Shown in pieces: positions 7,559 to 27,908 of a stretch of 64,000 nucleotides of DNA. The DNA is taken from assembly GCF_003048255.1 (NCBI RefSeq), contig NZ_CP028488.1:1-64000 (forward strand), in the 5' to 3' direction. Below the pieces are notes generated by a model that saw only the letters and a list, made by a program, of their open reading frames with translations, was not told the origin of the DNA and did no database searches. The stretch comes from Yersinia massiliensis. Its GTDB lineage: Bacteria; Pseudomonadota; Gammaproteobacteria; Enterobacterales; Enterobacteriaceae. The stretch's first letter is position 1. Each line of letters begins with the position of its first letter. The translations under genes and the position numbers were made by a program.

Positions 7559-8038
7559 CTACGCTATAGCCATACCGTTCCAACTATCTTTATAGATAAT
7601 ATTGCCGTCACAACATTTCCATGTGATGGATTCGTAGCGTAACTGAAGGGTTTCGAGGTGCGTTCCTGTTTGACCTCCAGGATGTAAGCTAGGTGTAATT
7701 GCCGTCACTTTAACGTTATCTAAAATTATATTAAAATATTCCTTTTCCACTCCTGAATCCAAAATACTATACATTTTTATTGTTGCAGATTTTAGCACCT
7801 GACCTTTACACAACGCTCTATACAGAATAGGTGTAGTTTTATCGAATTCTTTTTGCATAGAAAACGGTGCATGAACTCTTGTACCTGTCAGTCGGCCTGT
7901 GTTCCCGTCCGTTGGGATTGAAACATTATGATTAACTGACTTTAATTCAATAGCCCCTACTCTACCTGAAACCAAAGAACCACCAACAATGGGCGAACCA
8001 TTTTCATCAACTAACCAAAGATATGCTGGAATAGACAT
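7559..8038 (-). CDS. hcp: Hcp-family type VI secretion tube protein, cut off from its upstream region
   Basis: 159 residues beginning MSIPAYLWLVDENGSPIVGG, with IPTDGNTGRLTGTRVHAPF and a C-terminus ...LRYESITWKCCDGNIIYKDSW. This matches the Hcp1 family of hexameric T6SS tube/effector-carrier proteins over its full length. No other T6SS gene is in the window, so it is an orphan. The Tn3-family end begins 5 bases upstream of the ATG, so the native ribosome site and promoter are gone. A GTG inside the transposon end (8074) is in frame and would add 12 residues. Whether it is expressed is unclear. Confidence 0.85.
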   Translation of the reverse strand: MSIPAYLWLVDENGSPIVGGSLVSGRVGAIELKSVNHNVSIPTDGNTGRLTGTRVHAPFSMQKEFDKTTPILYRALCKGQVLKSATIKMYSILDSGVEKEYFNIILDNVKVTAITPSLHPGGQTGTHLETLQLRYESITWKCCDGNIIYKDSWNGMAIA

Positions 8039-8042
8039 ATTA

Positions 8043-8080
8043 GGGGTCTGACGCTCAGTGGAACGAAAACTCACGTTAAG
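8043..8080 (+). repeat. Tn3 terminal inverted repeat, left
   Basis: 38 bp starting GGGGTCTGACGCTCAG and ending ACTCACGTTAAG, an exact inverse of the right end. A diverged second copy of part of it (agcgaaaacttaccgtgagg) lies just inside, at about 8112-8131. Confidence 0.97.
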
Positions 8081-8177
8081 ATTCTTTTCTGAAAGTAGGA
8101 GGCCAACAGAGCGAAAACTTACCGTGAGGTTAAACTTTCCGCCCTAAGGGCCATTTTAATTAATAGAAATGAGCGTT

Positions 8178-10076
8178 TTACTCTATTTCTCTGACAAAGC
8201 GAGATTTCTGTTGGAACTTAAGATCCTTCCAAGGCATCATTCTTTGTTTAGGGTACGTAACATAAAGCCAACGCTTTGCGCGAGTTACTGCCACAAAGGC
8301 ATTATTACGTTCTTCATCAATTTCTTTTAATGAGTTAGCTCGGTAATCAGGGAAAACACCCTCACACATTCCCATCAAAAAAACGATGTCTTTTTCAAGT
8401 CCCTTCATAGTATGAACGGTACTCAATAACAACCCATTTTCTAATGAGTTTTCTGTTAACTGACCAAGGGCTAAAGCATTTCTAAAAGCGACTAAAGAAT
8501 TTCCCAACCCTTTGCGTTTGAATAAGGTCCAAGCTCTGCTAAACTCATTCAATTCATCTAAACTTAATTTTATCTCTTCAGACTTCCCTTCAGATGGAGC
8601 TGTACCTTGACTAATTAAACTAGTTAACTTTTCTTCAAACAAACGAACGAACTTTCTTATATTAGGTTCATCAACGTCTAGGCTATTTATTGAATTCATC
8701 AACTCAGAATACAATTCAGCGTTTTCTCTATCCAGATTTTTAGTTTGATTGGCTAAAATATTTAAAACACCATTTGACCATGACGTAGGCGCTATAACTC
8801 CCAATAGCGAGCACAACTTTTTACCATCAACCCAATCTTTTGGATTTAGCTTTATGCGAATAGAGTAATCGAGAATTCTTCCAAAAATTGTCGTAGGCTC
8901 TAGTTGACGCTCTCCTTTTCTCATGGAAAAATGGATATTATTTTGTTTTAAACAAGCTTCTAGTTTATTAAAAACGAATCTATTCCTTGCTATAACCACC
9001 ATTTTATCTAAAGATATGTCACCCTCTATTTCAGGATGTGTTTTTAACTCTAAGAGCAGCTTAACTGTAGATGTAATCCATTCAGCCTCAGCTTCTTCCG
9101 TATCAGCAGAAACTATCTTAACACCGCCTTCTAAGGCATAATCAAGTTCCGCTTGAGAGTTCGGCTTTAATTTATTCGCAGCCCTAATAATAGCCTTTGC
9201 GCTACGATAGTTTTCTCTTAATTCAAACTGAAATGGAGTAAAATCCTCCAAGAAATAGGTGCAAAGATACTCTTTTGAAGAACCATTGAACCCATAAATC
9301 ATCTGATTCGGATCTCCCACCATGAATACACTGTGGATGACATCTCCGCACAATGCCTTAATAAACTCATACTGGGCTTTATTTAAGTCTTGAGCTTCAT
9401 CGATACAAACATGTTTGTACTGAGAACGATAAATTTGAGCGATCCAGTTATGTGTTAATAAAATTTTGTGAGCATAAACTAATATGTCATCATAATCTAT
9501 CCCACCACTATTGACTAAAGATGATTGATAGTCTTGAAAGACCTTCCAAATATTACTGTTTGGATATTTTTCTGTTACATCTGATTCTGTAAATAGCTCA
9601 CGCTTGATCCTTGAAAATATATCCATATAATTTTGAAGATTTTTTTCTCGACTTTTTAGCTCCTTAGAATCAGAAATATTCAGATATTCATCAATATTTA
9701 CGCCATCTTCACGTAAGGATTGGAGGAAAACTTCCATTCGATCTTTATCTCGATCATAAATATGAAGCTCTGCAGGTAATCCTACTGTATGCCCATACTT
9801 CTCAAGAATACGCTGAGCCACAGAATGAATTGTTGCTATCCAAGCCCTATCTTCCGCTTCAATACAGTCCTCTAGGCGAACAGACATTTCTTCCGCAGCT
9901 TTGTTTGTGAAAGTAAGCGCTATCACTCCATCTTTTTTTGTATTCTGCAATATATAGCGAACTCGTTCAGTTAAAACTCGTGTTTTACCAGAACCGGCTG
10001 AAGCAAGCACTTGAATCGCTTTATTAAATGGTGCGTGCACTATTTGAGCTTGACTTGATGATAAGTTCAACATCAT
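8178..10076 (-). CDS. gajB: UvrD/PcrA-like helicase, GajB-type
   Basis: SF1 helicase of 632 residues. Walker A LASAGSGKTRVLTERV lies at about residue 25, motif II VCIDEAQDLNKAQ at about 225, and the C-terminal motifs LLSTVHTMKGLEKDIVF and AVTRAKRWLYVTYP at about 555 and 600. Pairing with an adjacent class 2 OLD nuclease is the defining architecture of Gabija anti-phage systems, where the helicase partner acts with GajA in one complex. It is longer than the roughly 500 residues I recall for the reference GajB, so it may belong to a diverged branch. The chosen ATG overlaps the gajA stop as TAATG; a GTG three codons upstream is also possible. Confidence 0.85.
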   Translation of the reverse strand: MMLNLSSSQAQIVHAPFNKAIQVLASAGSGKTRVLTERVRYILQNTKKDGVIALTFTNKAAEEMSVRLEDCIEAEDRAWIATIHSVAQRILEKYGHTVGLPAELHIYDRDKDRMEVFLQSLREDGVNIDEYLNISDSKELKSREKNLQNYMDIFSRIKRELFTESDVTEKYPNSNIWKVFQDYQSSLVNSGGIDYDDILVYAHKILLTHNWIAQIYRSQYKHVCIDEAQDLNKAQYEFIKALCGDVIHSVFMVGDPNQMIYGFNGSSKEYLCTYFLEDFTPFQFELRENYRSAKAIIRAANKLKPNSQAELDYALEGGVKIVSADTEEAEAEWITSTVKLLLELKTHPEIEGDISLDKMVVIARNRFVFNKLEACLKQNNIHFSMRKGERQLEPTTIFGRILDYSIRIKLNPKDWVDGKKLCSLLGVIAPTSWSNGVLNILANQTKNLDRENAELYSELMNSINSLDVDEPNIRKFVRLFEEKLTSLISQGTAPSEGKSEEIKLSLDELNEFSRAWTLFKRKGLGNSLVAFRNALALGQLTENSLENGLLLSTVHTMKGLEKDIVFLMGMCEGVFPDYRANSLKEIDEERNNAFVAVTRAKRWLYVTYPKQRMMPWKDLKFQQKSRFVREIE

Positions 10077-11841
10077 TATCCCCACCCTTTTAGCTGAGTA
10101 AAAGTATCAATAACAGCCTGAGGTATTAATTGTTCCACTGTTTTATTGTTTGGATTTCTTAATATGACATCAGCTAGAAAACCAGCGTAAGATGCCTTGG
10201 AGGAACGCATTCTCTTTAGAAGCTCATCATCACTAAGCGCCTCGATTTCTCTAGTTTTAGCTTCATTATAGGCAGCATTACTTCCCCCCCTTGTCTCCGT
10301 ATTAATCAGAGCCTCGATAATTTCTTGACGCATCCCCACAACATGAATTAACTCAGCCTCAATATCATTTTTAGGTGACAAATAGGAAACATGTAAATTT
10401 TTTTCAGACAGAATTAATGATGTGTTTCTTTCAATCTTCCTTAATTGAGATTCAATTTCCGTTTTAGTATTTCCATCGTTATCACTGACAATGCACACAG
10501 GAATGCCAAAACTCAATGCCATTTTTATAAATGGCGGGTAGTTTTTCCCAGAAACACTTATACAATTTACTCCAAGAGAAAATGCAGATTTTCTAAAAAA
10601 GGCTGAAAACATTGAAGGTATTATTTGTTCTTCAGTAACACCTTCGAATAATATTAGCGCTTTTGAGAACAATAGCTCGCCTCTGAATCGCATAATTTCT
10701 CGCTGAAGAATATTTATATCTTCTGGATCTAATCCACTAATTAATTGCGTAGCATTGATAGCATTTGATGTTCTAATCAACCCACGTAAGTTTTCAAGTT
10801 CTGACATCCCCACTAAATATGGGGAGTGTGTACTAATGATAACTTGGCCAGGACTATCTTGTAATTGTTGGAAAAGTGTTCTTTGCGCATTCGGATGTAA
10901 ATGTGCCTCAGGTTCTTCCGCCGCTAATATTGGAAAGAATGGTTCAGCTTCTTTCTCATGGTTTGTCGCCATCAACTCTGTAAATGCTTTCACTGCTAAT
11001 ATAGACGCCCAACTGCGTGTTCCCATACCATGGTATTCCATAGAGAATGAGCTTTTATCAGACTCTCCAAAATGCACGCTGAATCGTTTTGAAAGATCTC
11101 TTATTTTTTTTGGAAATGGTGTCAGTTCAGTTTGTCCAGACCCTTCAAATGATTGATTTAGAGTATCAAGATGAATTTTTAAACGTTTAAGAGGTTCGCT
11201 TTTATTAATCGCTTCCTTGTTGATTTCGGCAACCATTTTTTCCAATTCTGCTACATCATCATCACCGTATTCAATACTTGATAGAACTCTACCAACAAAC
11301 GAAGATTTTTCTTTCAACTCATTATGGATATCTCGCTGTGCATCTATAGAAATAAAAGGTATGGACTCGAGTCTCCTTCCCATCTTATTTTTACTGTTAA
11401 TGCGAGAATCTTGCCAATTTTCGGCATTCGGCCAAACATCTAAATAAAATCGTTCGACGTTATATCCACCTTTAACTCTATCAGGCTTTGCAGTTGTTCG
11501 TATTGCTACAAATTGTTTCCCATCAGCCTCTGCTTGTATCGAATCACCAAATTCTTGTTGCCATGATTCTGAAAACTCAGCGGTTCTAATGCCGCGATCT
11601 AATGCAATAAAACGCAAGTCAATTGTAATGTTATCTTGTCTCTTTTCATCATCGCCAATATGAAAATCCTCATCAGATAAATACCGAGAATAATCCCCTA
11701 ATGAAAGTTGCAGGGCTTTTATTATCGATGTTTTCCCTGCGTTATTTTGGCCAAACAATACAGTTACCCGAGGCAAAATAACCTCCACATTGGAGACACC
11801 TCTGAATCCACAAATTCGAACAACATCAATTTGGATATTCA

Positions 11842-11842
<1 letters not shown>
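10076..11842 (-). CDS. gajA: OLD-family ATPase-TOPRIM nuclease, GajA-type
   Basis: 588-residue DNA nuclease. An ABC-type ATPase with Walker A GQNNAGKTS (residues 31-39) and a signature/Walker B region ILAAEEPEAHLHPNAQ followed by STHSPYLV (about 305-335) is joined to a C-terminal TOPRIM domain with LFEGVTEEQ (catalytic Glu, about 400) and VSDNDGN (DxD, about 455). In Gabija systems GajA nicks DNA and is restrained by nucleotides. All key residues look intact. Start and stop both overlap their neighbours in TAATG junctions (tnpR-gajA and gajA-gajB), so the three genes form one coupled operon. Confidence 0.87.
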
Positions 11843-12584
<742 letters not shown>

Positions 12585-15500
12585 ATGCCCGTTGACTTTC
12601 TGACCACTGAGCAGACTGAAAGCTATGGCAGATTCACCGGTGAACCGGATGAGCTTCAGCTGGCACGATATTTTCACCTTGATGAAGCAGACAAGGAATT
12701 TATCGGAAAAAGCAGAGGTGATCACAACCGTCTGGGCATTGCCCTGCAAATTGGATGTGTCCGTTTTCTGGGCACCTTCCTCACCGATATGAATCATATT
12801 CCTTCCGGCGTCCGGCATTTTACCGCCAGACAGCTCGGGATTCGTGATATCACCGTTCTTGCAGAATACGGTCAGAGGGAAAATACCCGCCGTGAGCATG
12901 CAGCGCTGATACGTCAGCACTATCAGTATCGTGAATTTGCCTGGCCCTGGACATTTCGCCTTACCCGTCTTTTATATACCCGGAGCTGGATAAGCAACGA
13001 ACGTCCTGGCCTGCTTTTCGATCTGGCGACAGGGTGGCTTATGCAACATCGTATTATTCTCCCCGGAGCCACTACGCTGACCCGGTTGATTTCAGAGGTA
13101 AGGGAAAAGGCGACGTTGCGCCTGTGGAACAAACTGGCACTGATACCGTCAGCCGAACAGCGTTCACAGCTGGAGATGCTGCTGGGGCCAACTGATTGCA
13201 GCCGCCTGTCTTTACTGGAATCACTGAAAAAAGGCCCTGTGACCATCAGTGGTCCGGCGTTTAATGAAGCAATTGAACGCTGGAAAACTCTGAACGATTT
13301 TGGCCTGCATGCTGACAACCTGAGTACACTCCCGGCTGTGCGCCTGAAAAATCTCGCACGTTATGCTGGTATGACTTCGGTGTTCAATATTGCCAGGATG
13401 TCACCGCAGAAAAGGATAGCGGTTCTGGTTGCCTTTGTCCTTGCATGGGAAACGCTGGCGCTGGATGATGCACTGGACGTTCTGGACGCCATGCTGGCCG
13501 TTATCATCCGTGACGCCAGAAAGATTGGGCAGAAAAAACGGCTCCGCTCGCTGAAGGATCTGGATAAATCTGCATTGGCGCTCGCCAGCGCATGTTCGTA
13601 CCTGCTGAAAGAAGAAACACCGGACGAATCGATTCGTGCTGAGGTGTTCAGCTACATCCCCAGACAAAAGCTGGCTGAAATCATCACGCTTGTCCGTGAA
13701 ATTGCCCGGCCCTCAGACGATAATTTTCATGAAGAAATGGTGGAGCAGTACGGGCGCGTTCGTCGTTTCCTGCCCCATCTGCTGAATACCGTTAAATTTT
13801 CATCCGCACCTGCCGGGGTTACCACTCTGAATGCCTGTGACTACCTCAGCCGAGAGTTCAGCTCACGGCGGCAGTTTTTTGACGACGCACCAACGGAAAT
13901 TATCAGTCGGTCATGGAAACGGCTGGTGATTAACAAGGACAAACATATCACCCGCAGGGGATACACGCTCTGCTTTCTCAGTAAACTGCAGGATAGTCTG
14001 AGGCGGAGGGATGTCTACGTTACCGGCAGTAACCGGTGGGGAGATCCTCGTGCAAGATTACTACAGGGTGCTGACTGGCAGGCAAACCGGATTAAGGTTT
14101 ATCGTTCTTTGGGGCACCCGACAGACCCGCAGGAAGCAATAAAATCTCTGGGTCATCAGCTTGATAGTCGTTACAGACAGGTTGCTGCACGTCTTGGCGA
14201 AAATGAGGCTGTCGAACTCGATGTTTCTGGCCCGAAGCCCCGGTTGACAATTTCTCCCCTCGCCAGTCTTGATGAGCCGGACAGTCTGAAACGACTGAGC
14301 AAAATGATCAGTGATCTGCTCCCTCCGGTAGATTTAACGGAGTTGCTACTCGAAATTAACGCCCATACCGGATTTGCTGATGAGTTTTTCCATGCTAGTG
14401 AAGCCAGTGCCAGAGTTGATGATCTGCCCGTCAGCATCAGCGCCGTGCTGATGGCTGAAGCCTGCAATATCGGTCTGGAACCACTGATCAGATCAAATGT
14501 TCCTGCACTGACCCGACACCGGCTGAACTGGACAAAAGCGAACTATCTGCGGGCTGAAACTATCACCAGCGCTAATGCCAGACTGGTTGATTTTCAGGCA
14601 ACGCTGCCACTGGCACAGATATGGGGTGGAGGAGAAGTGGCATCTGCAGATGGAATGCGCTTTGTTACGCCAGTCAGAACAATCAATGCCGGACCGAACC
14701 GCAAATACTTTGGTAATAACAGAGGGATCACCTGGTACAACTTTGTGTCCGATCAGTATTCCGGCTTTCATGGCATCGTTATACCGGGGACGCTGAGGGA
14801 CTCTATCTTTGTGCTGGAAGGCCTTCTGGAACAGGAGACCGGGCTGAATCCAACCGAAATTATGACCGATACAGCAGGTGCCAGCGAACTTGTCTTTGGC
14901 CTTTTCTGGCTGCTGGGATACCAGTTTTCTCCACGCCTGGCTGATGCCGGTGCTTCGGTTTTCTGGCGAATGGACCATGATGCCGACTATGGTGTGCTGA
15001 ATGATATTGCTAGAGGGCAATCAGATCCCCGAAAAATAGTCCTTCAGTGGGACGAAATGATCCGGACCGCTGGCTCCCTGAAGCTGGGCAAAGTACAGGC
15101 TTCAGTGCTGGTCCGTTCATTGCTGAAAAGTGAACGTCCTTCCGGACTGACTCAGGCAATCATTGAAGTGGGGCGCATCAACAAAACGCTGTATCTGCTT
15201 AATTATATTGATGATGAAGATTACCGCCGGCGCATTCTGACCCAGCTTAATCGGGGAGAAAGCCGCCATGCCGTTGCCAGAGCCATCTGTCACGGTCAAA
15301 AAGGTGAGATAAGAAAACGATATACCGACGGTCAGGAAGATCAGTTGGGAGCACTGGGGCTGGTCACTAACGCCGTCGTGTTATGGAACACTATTTATAT
15401 GCAGGCAGCCCTGGATCATCTCCGGGCGCAGGGTGAAACACTGAATGATGATGATATCGCACGCCTCTCCCCGCTTTGCCACGGACATATCAATATGCTC

Positions 15501-15590
15501 GGCCATTATTCCTTCACGCTGGCAGAACTGGTGACCAAAGGACATCTGAGACCATTAAAAGAGGCGTCAGAGGCAGAAAACGTTGCTTAA
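12585..15590 (+). CDS. tnpA: Tn3 transposase
   Basis: 1001-residue DDE transposase, full length. It starts MPVDFLTTEQTESYGRFTGE and appears nearly identical to the Tn3/Tn2 transposase throughout as I recall it. The catalytic region includes ASADGMRF, TDTAGASE and the C-terminal GLVTNAVVLWNT. The stop codon falls 4 bases inside the right terminal repeat, as in Tn3. Its GC content is higher than the neighbouring defence genes, so transposition module and cargo have different histories. Confidence 0.97.
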   Translation: MPVDFLTTEQTESYGRFTGEPDELQLARYFHLDEADKEFIGKSRGDHNRLGIALQIGCVRFLGTFLTDMNHIPSGVRHFTARQLGIRDITVLAEYGQRENTRREHAALIRQHYQYREFAWPWTFRLTRLLYTRSWISNERPGLLFDLATGWLMQHRIILPGATTLTRLISEVREKATLRLWNKLALIPSAEQRSQLEMLLGPTDCSRLSLLESLKKGPVTISGPAFNEAIERWKTLNDFGLHADNLSTLPAVRLKNLARYAGMTSVFNIARMSPQKRIAVLVAFVLAWETLALDDALDVLDAMLAVIIRDARKIGQKKRLRSLKDLDKSALALASACSYLLKEETPDESIRAEVFSYIPRQKLAEIITLVREIARPSDDNFHEEMVEQYGRVRRFLPHLLNTVKFSSAPAGVTTLNACDYLSREFSSRRQFFDDAPTEIISRSWKRLVINKDKHITRRGYTLCFLSKLQDSLRRRDVYVTGSNRWGDPRARLLQGADWQANRIKVYRSLGHPTDPQEAIKSLGHQLDSRYRQVAARLGENEAVELDVSGPKPRLTISPLASLDEPDSLKRLSKMISDLLPPVDLTELLLEINAHTGFADEFFHASEASARVDDLPVSISAVLMAEACNIGLEPLIRSNVPALTRHRLNWTKANYLRAETITSANARLVDFQATLPLAQIWGGGEVASADGMRFVTPVRTINAGPNRKYFGNNRGITWYNFVSDQYSGFHGIVIPGTLRDSIFVLEGLLEQETGLNPTEIMTDTAGASELVFGLFWLLGYQFSPRLADAGASVFWRMDHDADYGVLNDIARGQSDPRKIVLQWDEMIRTAGSLKLGKVQASVLVRSLLKSERPSGLTQAIIEVGRINKTLYLLNYIDDEDYRRRILTQLNRGESRHAVARAICHGQKGEIRKRYTDGQEDQLGALGLVTNAVVLWNTIYMQAALDHLRAQGETLNDDDIARLSPLCHGHINMLGHYSFTLAELVTKGHLRPLKEASEAENVA

Positions 15591-15623
15591 CGTGAGTTTT
15601 CGTTCCACTGAGCGTCAGACCCC
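15586..15623 (-). repeat. Tn3 terminal inverted repeat, right
   Basis: Exact 38-bp inverse of the left end, overlapping the last codons of tnpA. The next bases (GAATA) do not match the pentamer outside the left end. Confidence 0.97.
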
Positions 15624-16006: not shown

Positions 16007-16900
16007 TTAGATATTATCCTCGGATTTTCTCTGAATAATGGTTCGTATGAAGGCTGCTGATATGTGAAGTGCTAACTCAGCATCATATTCAAGAACCGAG
16101 GATACCTTGTTGCTCCCGTGCCTGACCGCAGGTTCAGCGTTCGTGTAGGCGTAAAACTTTTCTATTACGGTGATAAGCAAGGGGGAAATAGAACTTTCCT
16201 TCTTCATTATTTTTAGCGCATCCCCCAGTGTGGAGGCGGTCGGATATAATGTACGGCATACGCTTTCAACGGCACTGATCGACTCTTTGATCGAGTTCTC
16301 TGGGTCTTTTTGTGAACCGAGAGTGAAAGCACGTGCTTTCGCATAATGTTTTCTGGCAGGTTCGAACTTGTCTTTAAGGGACGAATCTGTCTGATTAACC
16401 CTGAGCTCTAAATCATGAGGCAGCGGCGTTTCTAAGGTACTTGATTCGTTCAGCTTCCACTCTATCTTATGCATGGAAAACAGATCGTTAACTTTTTGTC
16501 GGTAAGATGCATAGCTGAACTCTTCGTAGGTTTTCTTAGCCCAAGAAAAAGTTTGTTCACCTTCAATTTCTTTTAATATCTGCCCGATAATTTCTACTGT
16601 ATCGTAAAATTTATACCACTCTAGATGTTGTATTCTCGTCTTTAAAGATTCATAACAATAAAATGAATCAAAGTCTTCTTGATCTGTTTCATGACCATTT
16701 TCAGCGCATATTCTTTCTATTAATGCTTTTATTCCCAGAGGTTTGTTTTCTGTATTTTGGACACGGCTATCTCCGTCAACAAAAATAAGGTTATCGAGTA
16801 CTTTAAGAAAGAAGAAAGACTTTAGCCAGTCAGGGGCATCCTGTTTAATTGGCTCATTTTTGTAGTCTGGATCAAACCCATTACGATAAGAAAATTTCAC
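16007..16900 (-). CDS. Abortive-infection-type protein with Abi C-terminal (HEPN-like) domain
   Basis: 297 residues. The C-terminal ~110 residues (SIKESISAVESVCRTLYPTA ... TLGDALKIM ... NAEPAVRHG ... LEYDAELALHISAAFIRTII) match the Abi_C fold found in AbiJ-like and other HEPN-type abortive infection proteins; AVRHG is its hallmark. The N-terminal ~180 residues (SYRNGFDPDYKNEPIKQDAP) are an AbiJ-NTD-like region seen in similar proteins. The start is GTG with GAGG 5 bases upstream. It stands alone between a recombinase remnant and resD. The likely role is phage defence by RNA cleavage or growth arrest, which is inference. Confidence 0.7.
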   Translation of the reverse strand: MKFSYRNGFDPDYKNEPIKQDAPDWLKSFFFLKVLDNLIFVDGDSRVQNTENKPLGIKALIERICAENGHETDQEDFDSFYCYESLKTRIQHLEWYKFYDTVEIIGQILKEIEGEQTFSWAKKTYEEFSYASYRQKVNDLFSMHKIEWKLNESSTLETPLPHDLELRVNQTDSSLKDKFEPARKHYAKARAFTLGSQKDPENSIKESISAVESVCRTLYPTASTLGDALKIMKKESSISPLLITVIEKFYAYTNAEPAVRHGSNKVSSVLEYDAELALHISAAFIRTIIQRKSEDNI

Positions 16901-23767: not shown

Positions 23768-24823
23768 ATGCGTAATTATATCTCTACCGAGCGTCTTGAT
23801 ATCTACGAACAGCATCTCAAAATTGAAGCACATCAGGTACTGGCTGCTTATCACTGGAATAAGGCTCTCGCGGGGGCGATGCTACCCGCAATGCAGTGTC
23901 TGGAGGTAACTCTGCGTAATGCCATAGATATGGCTATCCTGTCGCATCCGCCCACTGGTGCTAATGGCCTGTGGCTGACGGACCATAACTGGATCTTCAG
24001 TCTGCCACGTTATATGGGGAAAAAAGCAAACCCCAAACTCTCAAAGCGTTACAAGATGGCCAGAAAGGCGACTGACTCCCAAGATAATCATGGCGTTCTA
24101 CTTGACCAGTATGGCCATCGGGTCATTGCCCGCAAGGTCCGTGAAGAAACTCTGGTTGATCAGGCCCGTGACACCATCGTTTCCGAAGGAAAAATTATCA
24201 CTCCGGCACGGGTGATTGCCGGTATGAACTTTGGGTTCTGGACAACGTTGTTGAGCCATAAATATGAAGATAAGGCCAGTAAGTCACTGTTGTGGCCAAA
24301 CCTAGAAACGGTGGTGTTTCCGAACCTGCCTGAGGGATATACAATGGCGGATATCCGTCAGGATTTTCATCGCATCAGGGCACTGCGTAACCGACTTTCT
24401 CATCATGAGGCACTCTGGAAATTTCACTATGATGATCCTGCCACAGGTTTGCCGGACTACGGTCAACCAGTCTACGGAGTTCAAGCAAGCTGTAGCCTGT
24501 TACGCAAGCATTATGATGACATGCTGGAAATGATTGGCTGGATGAGTCCCGACAGGAAGGCCAATTTCTTAAGTCATTCGGCGCATTTGCGATTTTATGC
24601 GCTTTGCTCAGTTGATGGGTTAAACAGCTATATCGAACCGTCGAAAATTAAAGCAAAAGTAACATTGTCCCGGGGAGGAAAAGCTCTCAACAGGATCATT
24701 AAGGTACTTGAAAGGCATGAGTTTATTCGTATCGTCAGAGGAGGACAGACTGTAATAACTTTTGGAGCGGACAGTTCAACTCATAGTGTAATTATGGTCA
24801 ACGACCAGCTTGGCCGCCTCTAG
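23768..24823 (+). CDS. Abi-family HEPN protein
   Basis: 351 residues. An N-terminal helical domain with CLEVTLRNAIDMAI (about 50-62) and, near residue 210, IRQDFHRIRALRNRLSHHEALW, in which RNRLSHH is the HEPN R-x4-6-H ribonuclease signature, match the Abi_2/AbiD/F-like group of abortive infection proteins. A C-terminal ~60-residue extension (KVTLSRGGKALNRIIKVLER) may be a winged-helix-like addition. AAGGA precedes the ATG. It probably aborts phage growth by RNA cleavage (inference from family). It lies 220 bases upstream of the SIR2-HerA pair but is separately expressed. Confidence 0.75.
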   Translation: MRNYISTERLDIYEQHLKIEAHQVLAAYHWNKALAGAMLPAMQCLEVTLRNAIDMAILSHPPTGANGLWLTDHNWIFSLPRYMGKKANPKLSKRYKMARKATDSQDNHGVLLDQYGHRVIARKVREETLVDQARDTIVSEGKIITPARVIAGMNFGFWTTLLSHKYEDKASKSLLWPNLETVVFPNLPEGYTMADIRQDFHRIRALRNRLSHHEALWKFHYDDPATGLPDYGQPVYGVQASCSLLRKHYDDMLEMIGWMSPDRKANFLSHSAHLRFYALCSVDGLNSYIEPSKIKAKVTLSRGGKALNRIIKVLERHEFIRIVRGGQTVITFGADSSTHSVIMVNDQLGRL

Positions 24824-25044: not shown

Positions 25045-26085
25045 TTGGCGACAAGAAGACCATATTACGGTAACGATAGGGATCAGGAATACTTTGAGCG
25101 CGTATTTCAGTCTGCAAATATCAATTTTCTTATTGGATCAGGTGCCTCGCTACCCGCTATAAATGTGCTTGCTAATATTGAAAAAGAATTACAAAAATTA
25201 ATTAACAGTGAAAAAGAAAAAGAATATTTCGAGGAAGCATCTACATTTCTTAAATCAGTGTGGGTGGCTAATAATATTTTGATCGGAAGAGAGTATGAGT
25301 CGATACTTTATCCTCCGGATAAAGTTTCTAACACTAAAAAGACGGAAAAATATTATGCGGATTTTTTGTCTTCAATAGAAAAAATTCTTACCCGACGAAG
25401 GACGGGGTTGCTGCCCCGCCGGGTTAATATATTTACTACTAATTATGACCTTTTTATTGAGGATGCTGCAACAAAAAATCATAATATTGAGGTTAATGAT
25501 GGGTTTAGTCGTCGAGTGAATATTTTTAATCAGTATTCTTTTGATGCCGGAAGTTTCTACCGAAGTATTCACGCCACCGGGAATTTGTATAACTATAGCG
25601 TTGAATTACCCACGGTAAACCTCATAAAACTGCACGGTTCGCTTTCATGGAAAAAAGAAGGAGATAATATAATATATTCTCTACAGGATTTACCGCCTCT
25701 AAAATTCAAAGGACCGATTCATACTAAAAATTGGGTAAATAAGCATGCTATAATTTTGCCGAGAAAAGAAAAATTTAAAGAGACTCTTCTCGAGAACGTA
25801 TACTATGATTTATTACGCACATACTCTAACGAGCTCGATAAAGAAGGCACAGTCCTTATTGTATTCGGTTTTTCGTTCGCGGATGAGCATATTGAACTTC
25901 TGACGAAGAAAGCCTTGCGCAATGCGACGCTTAAAATTCTTATTTTTGCTTATAATGAATCCGCGCTGGATATGTTTGTAGATAAGTTCAGGGATTTCTC
26001 CAATGTGGAAATAGTGTATCTGCCTGGGGGAACGCTGGAATTTGGCAACCTCAATCACATTATTACGAACTATCTACGTGGTTAA
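25045..26085 (+). CDS. SIR2-family NADase of a SIR2-HerA system
   Basis: 346 residues. SIR2 fold motifs: NINFLIGSGASLPAINVLAN (NAD-binding GSGAS, about 27-46), NIFTTNYDLFIEDA (TTNYD, about 130), NLIKLHGSLSW (catalytic His region, about 192) and VFGFSFADEHIELL (about 275). SIR2 proteins in defence consume NAD+ on infection. The start is TTG with a good GGGAG site. The stop overlaps the HerA start (TAATG), so the pair is translationally coupled. The combination SIR2 + HerA is a known defence pair (also called Nezha), in which both proteins form one large assembly. Confidence 0.87.
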   Translation: MATRRPYYGNDRDQEYFERVFQSANINFLIGSGASLPAINVLANIEKELQKLINSEKEKEYFEEASTFLKSVWVANNILIGREYESILYPPDKVSNTKKTEKYYADFLSSIEKILTRRRTGLLPRRVNIFTTNYDLFIEDAATKNHNIEVNDGFSRRVNIFNQYSFDAGSFYRSIHATGNLYNYSVELPTVNLIKLHGSLSWKKEGDNIIYSLQDLPPLKFKGPIHTKNWVNKHAIILPRKEKFKETLLENVYYDLLRTYSNELDKEGTVLIVFGFSFADEHIELLTKKALRNATLKILIFAYNESALDMFVDKFRDFSNVEIVYLPGGTLEFGNLNHIITNYLRG

Positions 26086-27908
26086 TGATGAATACTAATT
26101 TTGTCGATGAAGAATCTATTTTACGTGTCGGAGAAGTGTGCGAAGTTTCTGGCAGAATGGTTACGATCCTTGTGGATAAGAATAAGAACCTGAGTGACCT
26201 ATTCTACCAAGGAAAGGTTTTAAAAAATGTTTCAGTAGGCAGCTTTATCGAGATCAAAAAAGGGTTTATGAGCCTTATCGGTAAGGTAGAAGCCGAAAAA
26301 ATCATTGAAGAAAGGCAGTATCAGGGCAGCGGTAGTGATGCGCAGCGTTATCGGCGCTACTTGACCGCTACCTTATCCGGCTATATTGATCGTCAGGGCC
26401 GTTTTATCGGCGGCATGCGAGAACTTCCTCTAATAGGAAATGAGGCGTTCATTGTCACCGAAGAGCTGGTTCAGATAATCCATCAGATCACCGAGGCAGG
26501 GAAACCCGGGTTGCATTTTGCCCGTACCGATCTCGAAGATATTGATATTACCCTACCGGTCAGTGGTCTGATGAACTCGCATATCGCTATCTTTGGCAAT
26601 ACGGGTAGTGGAAAATCTAACACCCTGGCTGCGCTTTATAAGCACGGGTACAGTGCTATCTCAGACATATTGGGCAAATCATTTATCGAGAAAAGCAAAT
26701 TCCTGTTATTTGATTTTAACGGGGAATACGGTGCTACGGAATGCATCACCGAGAATAAAGTTGTCTATAAACTTAATACGCACTCTGCGTCAGGGAATAA
26801 AATTCCGATGTCGGCCAGTATATTAGTAGAACACGAAATATTAAGTGTTTTAACTGATGCCACGGATAAGACGCAAAAACCCTTTCTAAAAAGGGTCTTA
26901 GACCTTAAGGCCAGTGTTGATGGAGCAGATGATCCAATAGAGTATTTCAGGAGTATTTTAAAAAAGAGGGTGAAGGAAACTCTTTTTGGCAGTGAAAAGT
27001 CGCGATGCGATACGGTTTTTGATTTTTTTAGACCAATTTTCAACGACCATGAAAAGATGATATCGGATTTAGAGTTTCAGTTTTCAAGAAAAGTTTGGTA
27101 TACCAAAAAAGGTCATTACTTTGATACTGCTGATGATACAGAAGATTCTAATCTTTTCAAATTAGCATGTCATTACGAGTTTCCGGAAGATTTAATTGAA
27201 AATTTACTTTCTTTTATGTATCTCCAACTGATCTCTGAGTTCCTTTCAAATCGCTCAAACCCAGAGCATATTTCACCTGTTATTAACAGGATGAGAAGTA
27301 ATAGGAAAGACATTGCCAAGATTTTTGATACCCGAGGTGTTACAGACTTTTGGAAGGAGGGGAATTTTGTGGTCATTGACCTCAATATGGTAAATATCAC
27401 CATGAAAAAAATGCTCCCACTGATATTAGCAAAATGGGTCTATAACGAGAAAAAAAATGAGACAACAAAGTCCACGTTGAATATCATCATTGATGAGGCC
27501 CACAATATCCTTTCGAATACCTCATTTCGCGAAACGGAGAGCTGGAAAGATTACCGGCTGGAAACGTTTGAAGAGATTATCAAAGAAGGCAGAAAATTTG
27601 GCGTATTTGTCACCCTCTCCAGCCAGCGACCTAATGATATATCTTCAACCATCATCTCGCAGGCACACAATTATTTTATTCACCGGCTGATTAATCAGAA
27701 TGATCTCTTTGCAATTGAGAAATCGGTATCCTACATCGACCGTATGACAGAAGAGTCTATCCCTACGCTATCCACTGGCACCTGTATTTTCAGCGGCGTC
27801 GCCTGCCCGATGCCATTGAAATTACGCATCACAGAGCTGGACAATAAGGCTAAGCCGCATAGCCATACAGTTTCATTTGAGGAACTGAAACAAGACAACA
27901 AACCGTAG
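26085..27908 (+). CDS. HerA/DUF87-type ATPase of the SIR2-HerA system
   Basis: 607 residues. Walker A IFGNTGSGKSNTLAAL lies at about residue 169 and Walker B LNIIIDEAHNILSN at about 467, followed by EGRKFGVFVTLSSQRPNDIS with the arginine-finger region, as in HerA hexameric DNA translocases. The N-terminal ~150 residues include a HAS-barrel-like beta region (EVCEVSGRMVTILVD). The central ~200 residues are an insertion typical of the defence-associated subgroup. It is coupled to the SIR2 gene by a 1-base overlap; a second ATG follows immediately and could be used instead. Confidence 0.87.
   Translation: MMNTNFVDEESILRVGEVCEVSGRMVTILVDKNKNLSDLFYQGKVLKNVSVGSFIEIKKGFMSLIGKVEAEKIIEERQYQGSGSDAQRYRRYLTATLSGYIDRQGRFIGGMRELPLIGNEAFIVTEELVQIIHQITEAGKPGLHFARTDLEDIDITLPVSGLMNSHIAIFGNTGSGKSNTLAALYKHGYSAISDILGKSFIEKSKFLLFDFNGEYGATECITENKVVYKLNTHSASGNKIPMSASILVEHEILSVLTDATDKTQKPFLKRVLDLKASVDGADDPIEYFRSILKKRVKETLFGSEKSRCDTVFDFFRPIFNDHEKMISDLEFQFSRKVWYTKKGHYFDTADDTEDSNLFKLACHYEFPEDLIENLLSFMYLQLISEFLSNRSNPEHISPVINRMRSNRKDIAKIFDTRGVTDFWKEGNFVVIDLNMVNITMKKMLPLILAKWVYNEKKNETTKSTLNIIIDEAHNILSNTSFRETESWKDYRLETFEEIIKEGRKFGVFVTLSSQRPNDISSTIISQAHNYFIHRLINQNDLFAIEKSVSYIDRMTEESIPTLSTGTCIFSGVACPMPLKLRITELDNKAKPHSHTVSFEELKQDNKP

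Follow-up and report, generated by a model that had tools for sequence, protein, structure and literature searches.

We analysed a window of 64,000 nucleotides of Yersinia massiliensis DNA (the whole stretch, contig NZ_CP028488.1, positions 1 to 64,000), in which positions 8043-15623 form a complete Tn3-type transposon of 7,581 bp on a plasmid. Our analysis indicates that this is very probably a complete, recently active unit transposon of the Tn3 subfamily which carries a Gabija-type defence operon as its cargo. Transposons of the Tn3 family rank among the principal vehicles of antibiotic resistance, and Tn3 itself is known for spreading penicillin resistance. In the present element, the gene pair gajA-gajB occupies the usual position of bla. 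A defence system within such a self-mobile unit could allow phage immunity to be passed among plasmids, chromosomes and prophages, independently of a defence island or an integrase.

Layout and mobility of the transposon

The element shows the hallmarks of the Tn3 family, namely 38-bp terminal inverted repeats, a DDE transposase, a serine resolvase and a three-part res, the last recognised by alignment, between the divergent tnpA and tnpR genes. Opposite to the tnpA strand, the genes follow the order tnpR, gajA and gajB. The features of the unit are:

8043..8080, + strand: left 38-bp terminal inverted repeat, exact Tn3 sequence
8105..8128, + strand: tentative feature, possibly a degenerate inner copy of a Tn3/gamma-delta-type end, with 7-8 mismatches in 24 positions
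8178..10076, - strand: gajB, UvrD/PcrA-like superfamily 1 (SF1) helicase, 632 aa from an ATG that overlaps the gajA stop
10076..11842, - strand: gajA, OLD nuclease (ABC ATPase and TOPRIM), 588 aa, with an ATG that overlaps the tnpR stop
11842..12447, - strand: tnpR, serine resolvase of a non-Tn3 lineage, 201 aa
12409..12540, - strand: res region with sites I, II and III and presumed divergent promoters, placed solely by alignment with Tn3 and gamma-delta
12513..12540, no strand: res site I, with the hybrid junction at its central TTATAA (12524-12529), placed by alignment
12585..15590, + strand: tnpA, Tn3 transposase, 1001 aa, 99.5% identical to Tn3 TnpA
15586..15623, - strand: right 38-bp terminal inverted repeat, exact Tn3 sequence

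Two of the genes have alternative starts: tnpR read from the ATG at 12408, which lines up with other TnpRs, encodes 188 aa, and an upstream GTG at 10085 would extend GajB to 635 aa. A preceding reading of this DNA, made from the sequence alone, had described both ends as exact Tn3 termini and TnpA as essentially that of Tn3, and our comparisons agree on both counts. Both repeats match the reference terminus of Tn3, and the same 38 bp bound the blaTEM-1 Tn3 of an Escherichia coli plasmid (L130) with 0 mismatches at either end. TnpA differs from the TnpA of this blaTEM Tn3 at 5 of 1001 residues, with a DNA identity of 99.3%, and matches the transposase profiles of Pfam (DDE_Tnp_Tn3, 3.5e-149) and NCBIfam (Tn3 transposase, 1164 bits at a cut-off of 500). 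The G+C content is 0.37 in the cargo versus 0.52 in tnpA.

The whole package moved recently as one unit, since a second, identical copy carries a 5-bp target duplication. This copy, identical at 7,581 of 7,581 bases, lies on the chromosome (C1:564472-572052, contig of 4,986,001 bases), where it splits the tail-sheath gene of a P2-like prophage and is flanked on both sides by TATCA. The 4.4 kb beside it match Yersinia enterocolitica phages at about 88% over 73-79% of their length, and the tail sheath gene lies under this match. The earlier suggestion that the cargo travels in a Tn3 vehicle is borne out by this copy and its duplication. It is exceedingly improbable that the chromosomal copy is merely an assembly duplicate of an element that never moved: identity over 7,581 bp would be expected of a duplicate, but the flanks are unrelated on both sides, a perfect 5-bp duplication has a chance of 1 in 1024, and the copy lies within the 4,986,001-base contig of a three-contig assembly. 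Two identical copies in one genome fit replicative transposition, in which TnpA would copy the element and TnpR would resolve the cointegrate at res.

The cargo pair and its assignment to Gabija

The sequence-only reading had recognised an OLD nuclease/UvrD helicase pair with all catalytic motifs and had proposed a search against Gabija profiles. Both genes are indeed intact (588 aa, and 632 or 635 aa), and all motifs searched were present: GQNNAGKTS, AAEEPEAHLHP, FEGVTEEQ and SDNDG in GajA, ASAGSGKTR and DEAQD in GajB. In Pfam, GajA combines AAA_15 with an OLD-like TOPRIM domain, and GajB combines UvrD-helicase with UvrD_C. GajA thereby shows an ABC ATPase and a TOPRIM nuclease with the glutamate and DxD residues given in the available portion of PMC10781630, and the adjoining gajB encodes an SF1 UvrD-like helicase with Walker A and DEXQD. 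In the PADLOC search, the best profiles were GajA (1.1e-240) and GajB (1.3e-278), well ahead of the top-scoring profiles from other systems in the list of 25 (Old, 3e-38; DRT helicase, 8.1e-68). By family profile, motifs and gene order, the cargo is best described as Gabija-type, albeit far in sequence from the Gabija systems studied experimentally. Gabija systems are further characterised by a 4:4 complex of GajA and GajB and by protection against phage.

The stop codon of tnpR and the start of gajA overlap by 1 bp (TAATG), as do the gajA stop and the gajB start. Since these overlaps leave no intergenic space in which a separate control region could lie, gajA and gajB are probably co-expressed with tnpR from the resolvase promoter in res, where an exact -10 hexamer, TATAAT, lies at 12461-12466. 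Cargo transcribed from the tnpR promoter should share the autoregulation by TnpR, and by analogy with Tn3 the resolvase may repress it. In Tn3, TnpR autoregulates both tnpR and tnpA, according to the excerpts of PMC7157771 that we consulted. The operon fusion thus raises the question whether the resolvase of a transposon sets the level of immunity.

Several results weigh against the picture of a recently active transposon with a Gabija operon. In a single-sequence search, the GajA of the window matched solved GajA at residues ~297-475 only (best 1.5e-9), and by profile at 4.9e-14 with no single stretch passing the limit; in both searches the OLD protein 6p74 scored higher than solved GajA. GajB is nearer to PcrA/UvrD (5.7e-93 by profile) than to solved GajB, which was found at 8e-11 with the single sequence and was absent from the profile matches <1e-20. 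Furthermore, no Gabija family was listed in NCBIfam for GajA or GajB. Because the matches to solved Gabija are weak and partial, membership rests on profiles, motifs and gene pairing; the claim of a Gabija-type cargo stands on the PADLOC results, the motifs and the gene order, and is qualified by the distance from the solved Bacillus cereus system. A promoter scan of the region returned 20 promoter-like sites compared to 15.2 in shuffles (standard deviation 4.6) and hence no excess; with these sites within the shuffle range, a gaj-specific promoter was not demonstrable. Finally, the plasmid copy in the window is flanked by TATTA and GAATA without a target duplication. The same read-out of flanks gave GACTC/GACTC for the blaTEM Tn3 and AAGAA/AAGAA for an element with a type III restriction-modification (R-M) cargo (L129). 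The sequence to the left of the window copy corresponds to the hcp (tssD) locus on Yersinia plasmids and that to the right to a recombinase gene which is longer on other Yersinia plasmids; both matches reach the transposon boundary itself, and all four plasmid regions examined hold one flank without the other. An adjacent deletion or a recombination between plasmids after insertion would explain the missing duplication.

The distance from solved Gabija also bears on the function of the cargo. A real transposon with an inert cargo, in which the OLD/UvrD pair is passive or serves DNA repair or plasmid maintenance, could draw on the proximity of GajB to PcrA/UvrD and on the GajA match over part of its length, but appears quite improbable: the two genes are undamaged in each copy and contain the motifs searched, the PADLOC profiles reach 1e-240 and 1e-278, and a GajB relative stands beside GajA in 85 of the 86 loci compared, the exception (L090) ending just past gajA. 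These 86 loci comprise 80 kept of 95 from genome contigs, two viral and four plasmid loci. Rather unlikely, too, is that the cargo mainly guards the plasmid of the transposon against rival plasmids, prophages and conjugating DNA, with phage defence as a secondary role. Further defence candidates, among them a SIR2-HerA pair, lie on the same plasmid, and the chromosomal copy interrupts a prophage gene, but the Gabija work in the sections of PMC10781630 at hand concerns phages. Under the favoured reading of a Gabija-type defence cargo, GajAB would nick or degrade phage or other invading DNA and so protect the replicon and the host that carry the transposon; an attack on phage DNA is suggested by analogy with Bacillus cereus Gabija (PMC10781630, in part).

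Hybrid origin and relatives of the tnpR-gajA-gajB unit

The sequence-only reading had placed Gabija in a classical Tn3, in place of its resistance gene. The pair does sit at the bla position, but a simple swap does not account for the element, as the lineage changes at res site I and the TnpR shares only 72.8% identity with that of Tn3. Measured in 60-bp steps, the identity with Tn3 amounts to 98-100% from 13300 to 12581, 93% over 12580-12521 and 61% over 12520-12461, and it stays at 50-80% through tnpR. The switch point is the central TTATAA of site I (12524-12529), with a tnpA side like Tn3 and a tnpR side like Aeromonas and Shewanella elements. In a tree of 17 rows, TnpR falls into a clade that contains TnpRs of Aeromonas, Shewanella, Pseudomonas and others and excludes those of Tn3, gamma-delta and the R-M element (support 97/93). 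Because the identity drops at res site I, only the tnpA half is counted as Tn3; on these comparisons the element is a hybrid, whose tnpR and cargo come from another lineage of the Tn3 subfamily.

The available text of PMC7157771 describes exchange of cargo modules at site I for other Tn3-family transposons and recombination at the centre of this site. An earlier resolvase-type exchange at site I between Tn3 and another transposon of the subfamily would have brought together the tnpA half of Tn3 and a half made up of tnpR, gajA and gajB. We consider it quite unlikely that the hybrid was made by homologous or illegitimate recombination instead of by a resolvase working on a pair of res sites. 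It is true that a single junction is seen and that one break might fall in res by chance, and the exact Tn3 end beyond gajB needs an extra event which one site-I exchange does not supply. Against this stand the position of the break at the central TTATAA, a known recombination point (PMC7157771, excerpts), and the sharp fall from 98-100% per step down to 12581 through 93% in the site I step to 61%. Resolvase-type exchange is therefore the origin that we favour. A second event, which may have placed the exact Tn3 end beyond gajB, is hinted at by the possible inner end at 8105-8128. The score of this inner end was reached in 1 of 2000 (gamma-delta pattern) and 6 of 2000 (Tn3 pattern) mononucleotide shuffles of 8081-8180.

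Among the 86 loci, a tnpR like that of the window directly precedes gajA in two, Aeromonas hydrophila pK533 (L003) and Xenorhabdus japonica (L027); eight loci have <600 bases before gajA in the available stretch, where a whole tnpR would not be visible. Both share the order tnpR-gajA-gajB and divergent tnpA remnants; unlike in the window, tnpA is decayed. Beyond gajB, L027 has an end-like sequence with 9 mismatches in 38 positions; in L003 the scan found no end within 12 mismatches, and an end with an indel was read by eye only. These two loci are sisters in the TnpR, GajB and GajA trees. A single clade of the window with both was rejected by the GajB tree (18 rows, p 3.5e-5) and by the first ~340 residues of GajA (18 rows, p 0.013), and was not rejected by the TnpR tree (17 rows, p 0.33). 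Moreover, about 11 bases before gajA are alike in the three loci and unlike those of 11 other aligned loci, as judged by eye. A single origin of the tnpR-Gabija linkages thus has GajB and the first part of GajA against it, but neither TnpR nor the similarity of the ~11 bases. Two scenarios would fit: the gaj genes were captured twice, or they were captured once and exchanged later. The GajA relatives carry two kinds of C-terminal, TOPRIM-containing half behind a conserved ATPase half, one in the window and L004 and one in L002, L003 and L005 (alignment, by eye), a pattern that resembles a swap of the nuclease half.

In the protein set, the closest GajA relatives among the best 120 listed were P0001 (97%) and P0002 from Morganella morganii (96%); none of at least 95% was named from Serratia, Yersinia or Salmonella among these 120. 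GajB relatives of 96-98% identity occur in Serratia fonticola, Yersinia enterocolitica, Salmonella enterica and Morganella morganii, the first three species contributing P0244, P0246 and P0247 at 97%. Near-identical GajB proteins in four named species are compatible with recent spread. TnpR relatives of 97-99% identity were also found (P0121-P0124). Since the longest contigs of TnpR P0123 and Morganella morganii GajB P0245 both measure 67,081 bases, the two are suggested to lie on one contig, and the end of P0124 can be read as tnpR continuing into a gajA with the start MDIQ, as in P0002.

Occurrence and comparison with known systems

The whole element had no record of at least 80% coverage among the best 5000 of PLSDB, where records very near the source genome were possibly left out, and no match in the 20,395 records of the E. 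coli collection; the plasmid-database check of the 7.6-kb unit that had been proposed with the sequence-only reading accordingly yielded no near-copy in either set. The cargo alone was found in 13 PLSDB records, all at 60-80% identity. In 24 other genomes of the genus, there was no cargo match of >38 bases. GajA was detected at E <=1e-60 in two of 393 other genomes of the order (57% identical, partial with one stop, and 60%), at E <=1e-100 in one of 368 other genomes of the class, and at two loci in viral contigs (53% and 36%). The earlier statement that no named Tn3 derivative with this cargo is known is in line with the literature matches listed, mostly outside subscription journals, which contain no description of a Tn3-borne Gabija. 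Tn3 and Gabija are both known.

Several neighbours of the window copy were also observed. The type VI secretion system tube gene hcp/tssD (7559-8042) lies on the same strand as the gaj operon, with its ATG 4 bp outside the left transposon end, and the hcp/tssD locus beside this end is also found on other Yersinia plasmids. The plasmid carries another Tn3-like end (87%, C2:109002-109039) and a tnpA remnant (73%, C2:99093-99172). In the window, there are also a PDC-S32-like defence candidate (16007-16900, 3.1e-34) with a below-cut-off match to the AbiJ N-terminus, a PD-T4-5-like candidate (23768-24823, 6.5e-22) and the SIR2-HerA defence pair (25045-27908, PADLOC 1.7e-167 and 5.6e-231).

A defence-type cargo in the tnpR slot is not unique to the window, because R-M and toxin-antitoxin genes occupy this slot elsewhere. 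An 8,349-bp Tn3-type element with exact Tn3 ends and an AAGAA duplication lies on the Klebsiella pneumoniae IncC plasmid p1_130002 (L129:2385-10733); behind tnpR, it encodes a type III methyltransferase (1.1e-76) together with a restriction subunit whose match is weak (9.8e-9), and we found no name for it. Its tnpR-plus-R-M half occurs at >=80% in at least 19 of the best 5000 PLSDB records. Toxin-antitoxin genes stand behind tnpR in L121 and L132. One might tentatively imagine the tnpR-side half as an exchangeable immunity slot, in which resolvase at site I swaps units of tnpR plus cargo (bla, type III R-M, Gabija or toxin-antitoxin) between transposons, and in which fusion to the tnpR operon would place immune genes under TnpR autoregulation, with a burst of expression in a TnpR-free cell that is then turned down; we hold this as a doubtful possibility.

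Transposon-borne Gabija has already been published in Tn7-like elements, as seen in the portion of PMC8649781 available; these transposons with OLD/Gabija cargo resemble ours in carrying Gabija on a transposon, but their transposition machinery is unrelated. The solved Gabija of Bacillus cereus VD045 shares the OLD ATPase-TOPRIM nuclease with an adjacent SF1 helicase, the TOPRIM glutamate, DxD and DEXQD, but is distant in sequence; its GajB has ~494 aa compared to 632 here, and the GajB of the window is closer to PcrA/UvrD. The R-M element of Klebsiella has, like the element of the window, exact Tn3 ends, a tnpA stretch identical at 97-100% where compared, a defence-type cargo behind tnpR and a 5-bp duplication, whereas its tnpR is 77% identical to that of the window, its cargo is R-M and it is found on more plasmids. 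Among the close known systems is also the blaTEM-1 Tn3 of E. coli plasmid pE17EC0085-3 (L130), which has the same 38-bp ends, a 99.5% identical TnpA, the same tnpA side of res, a 5-bp duplication and the same layout tnpA<-res->tnpR-cargo. It differs in its tnpR (72.8%) and in carrying bla where the Yersinia element carries gajA-gajB, a cargo which overlaps tnpR by 1 bp.

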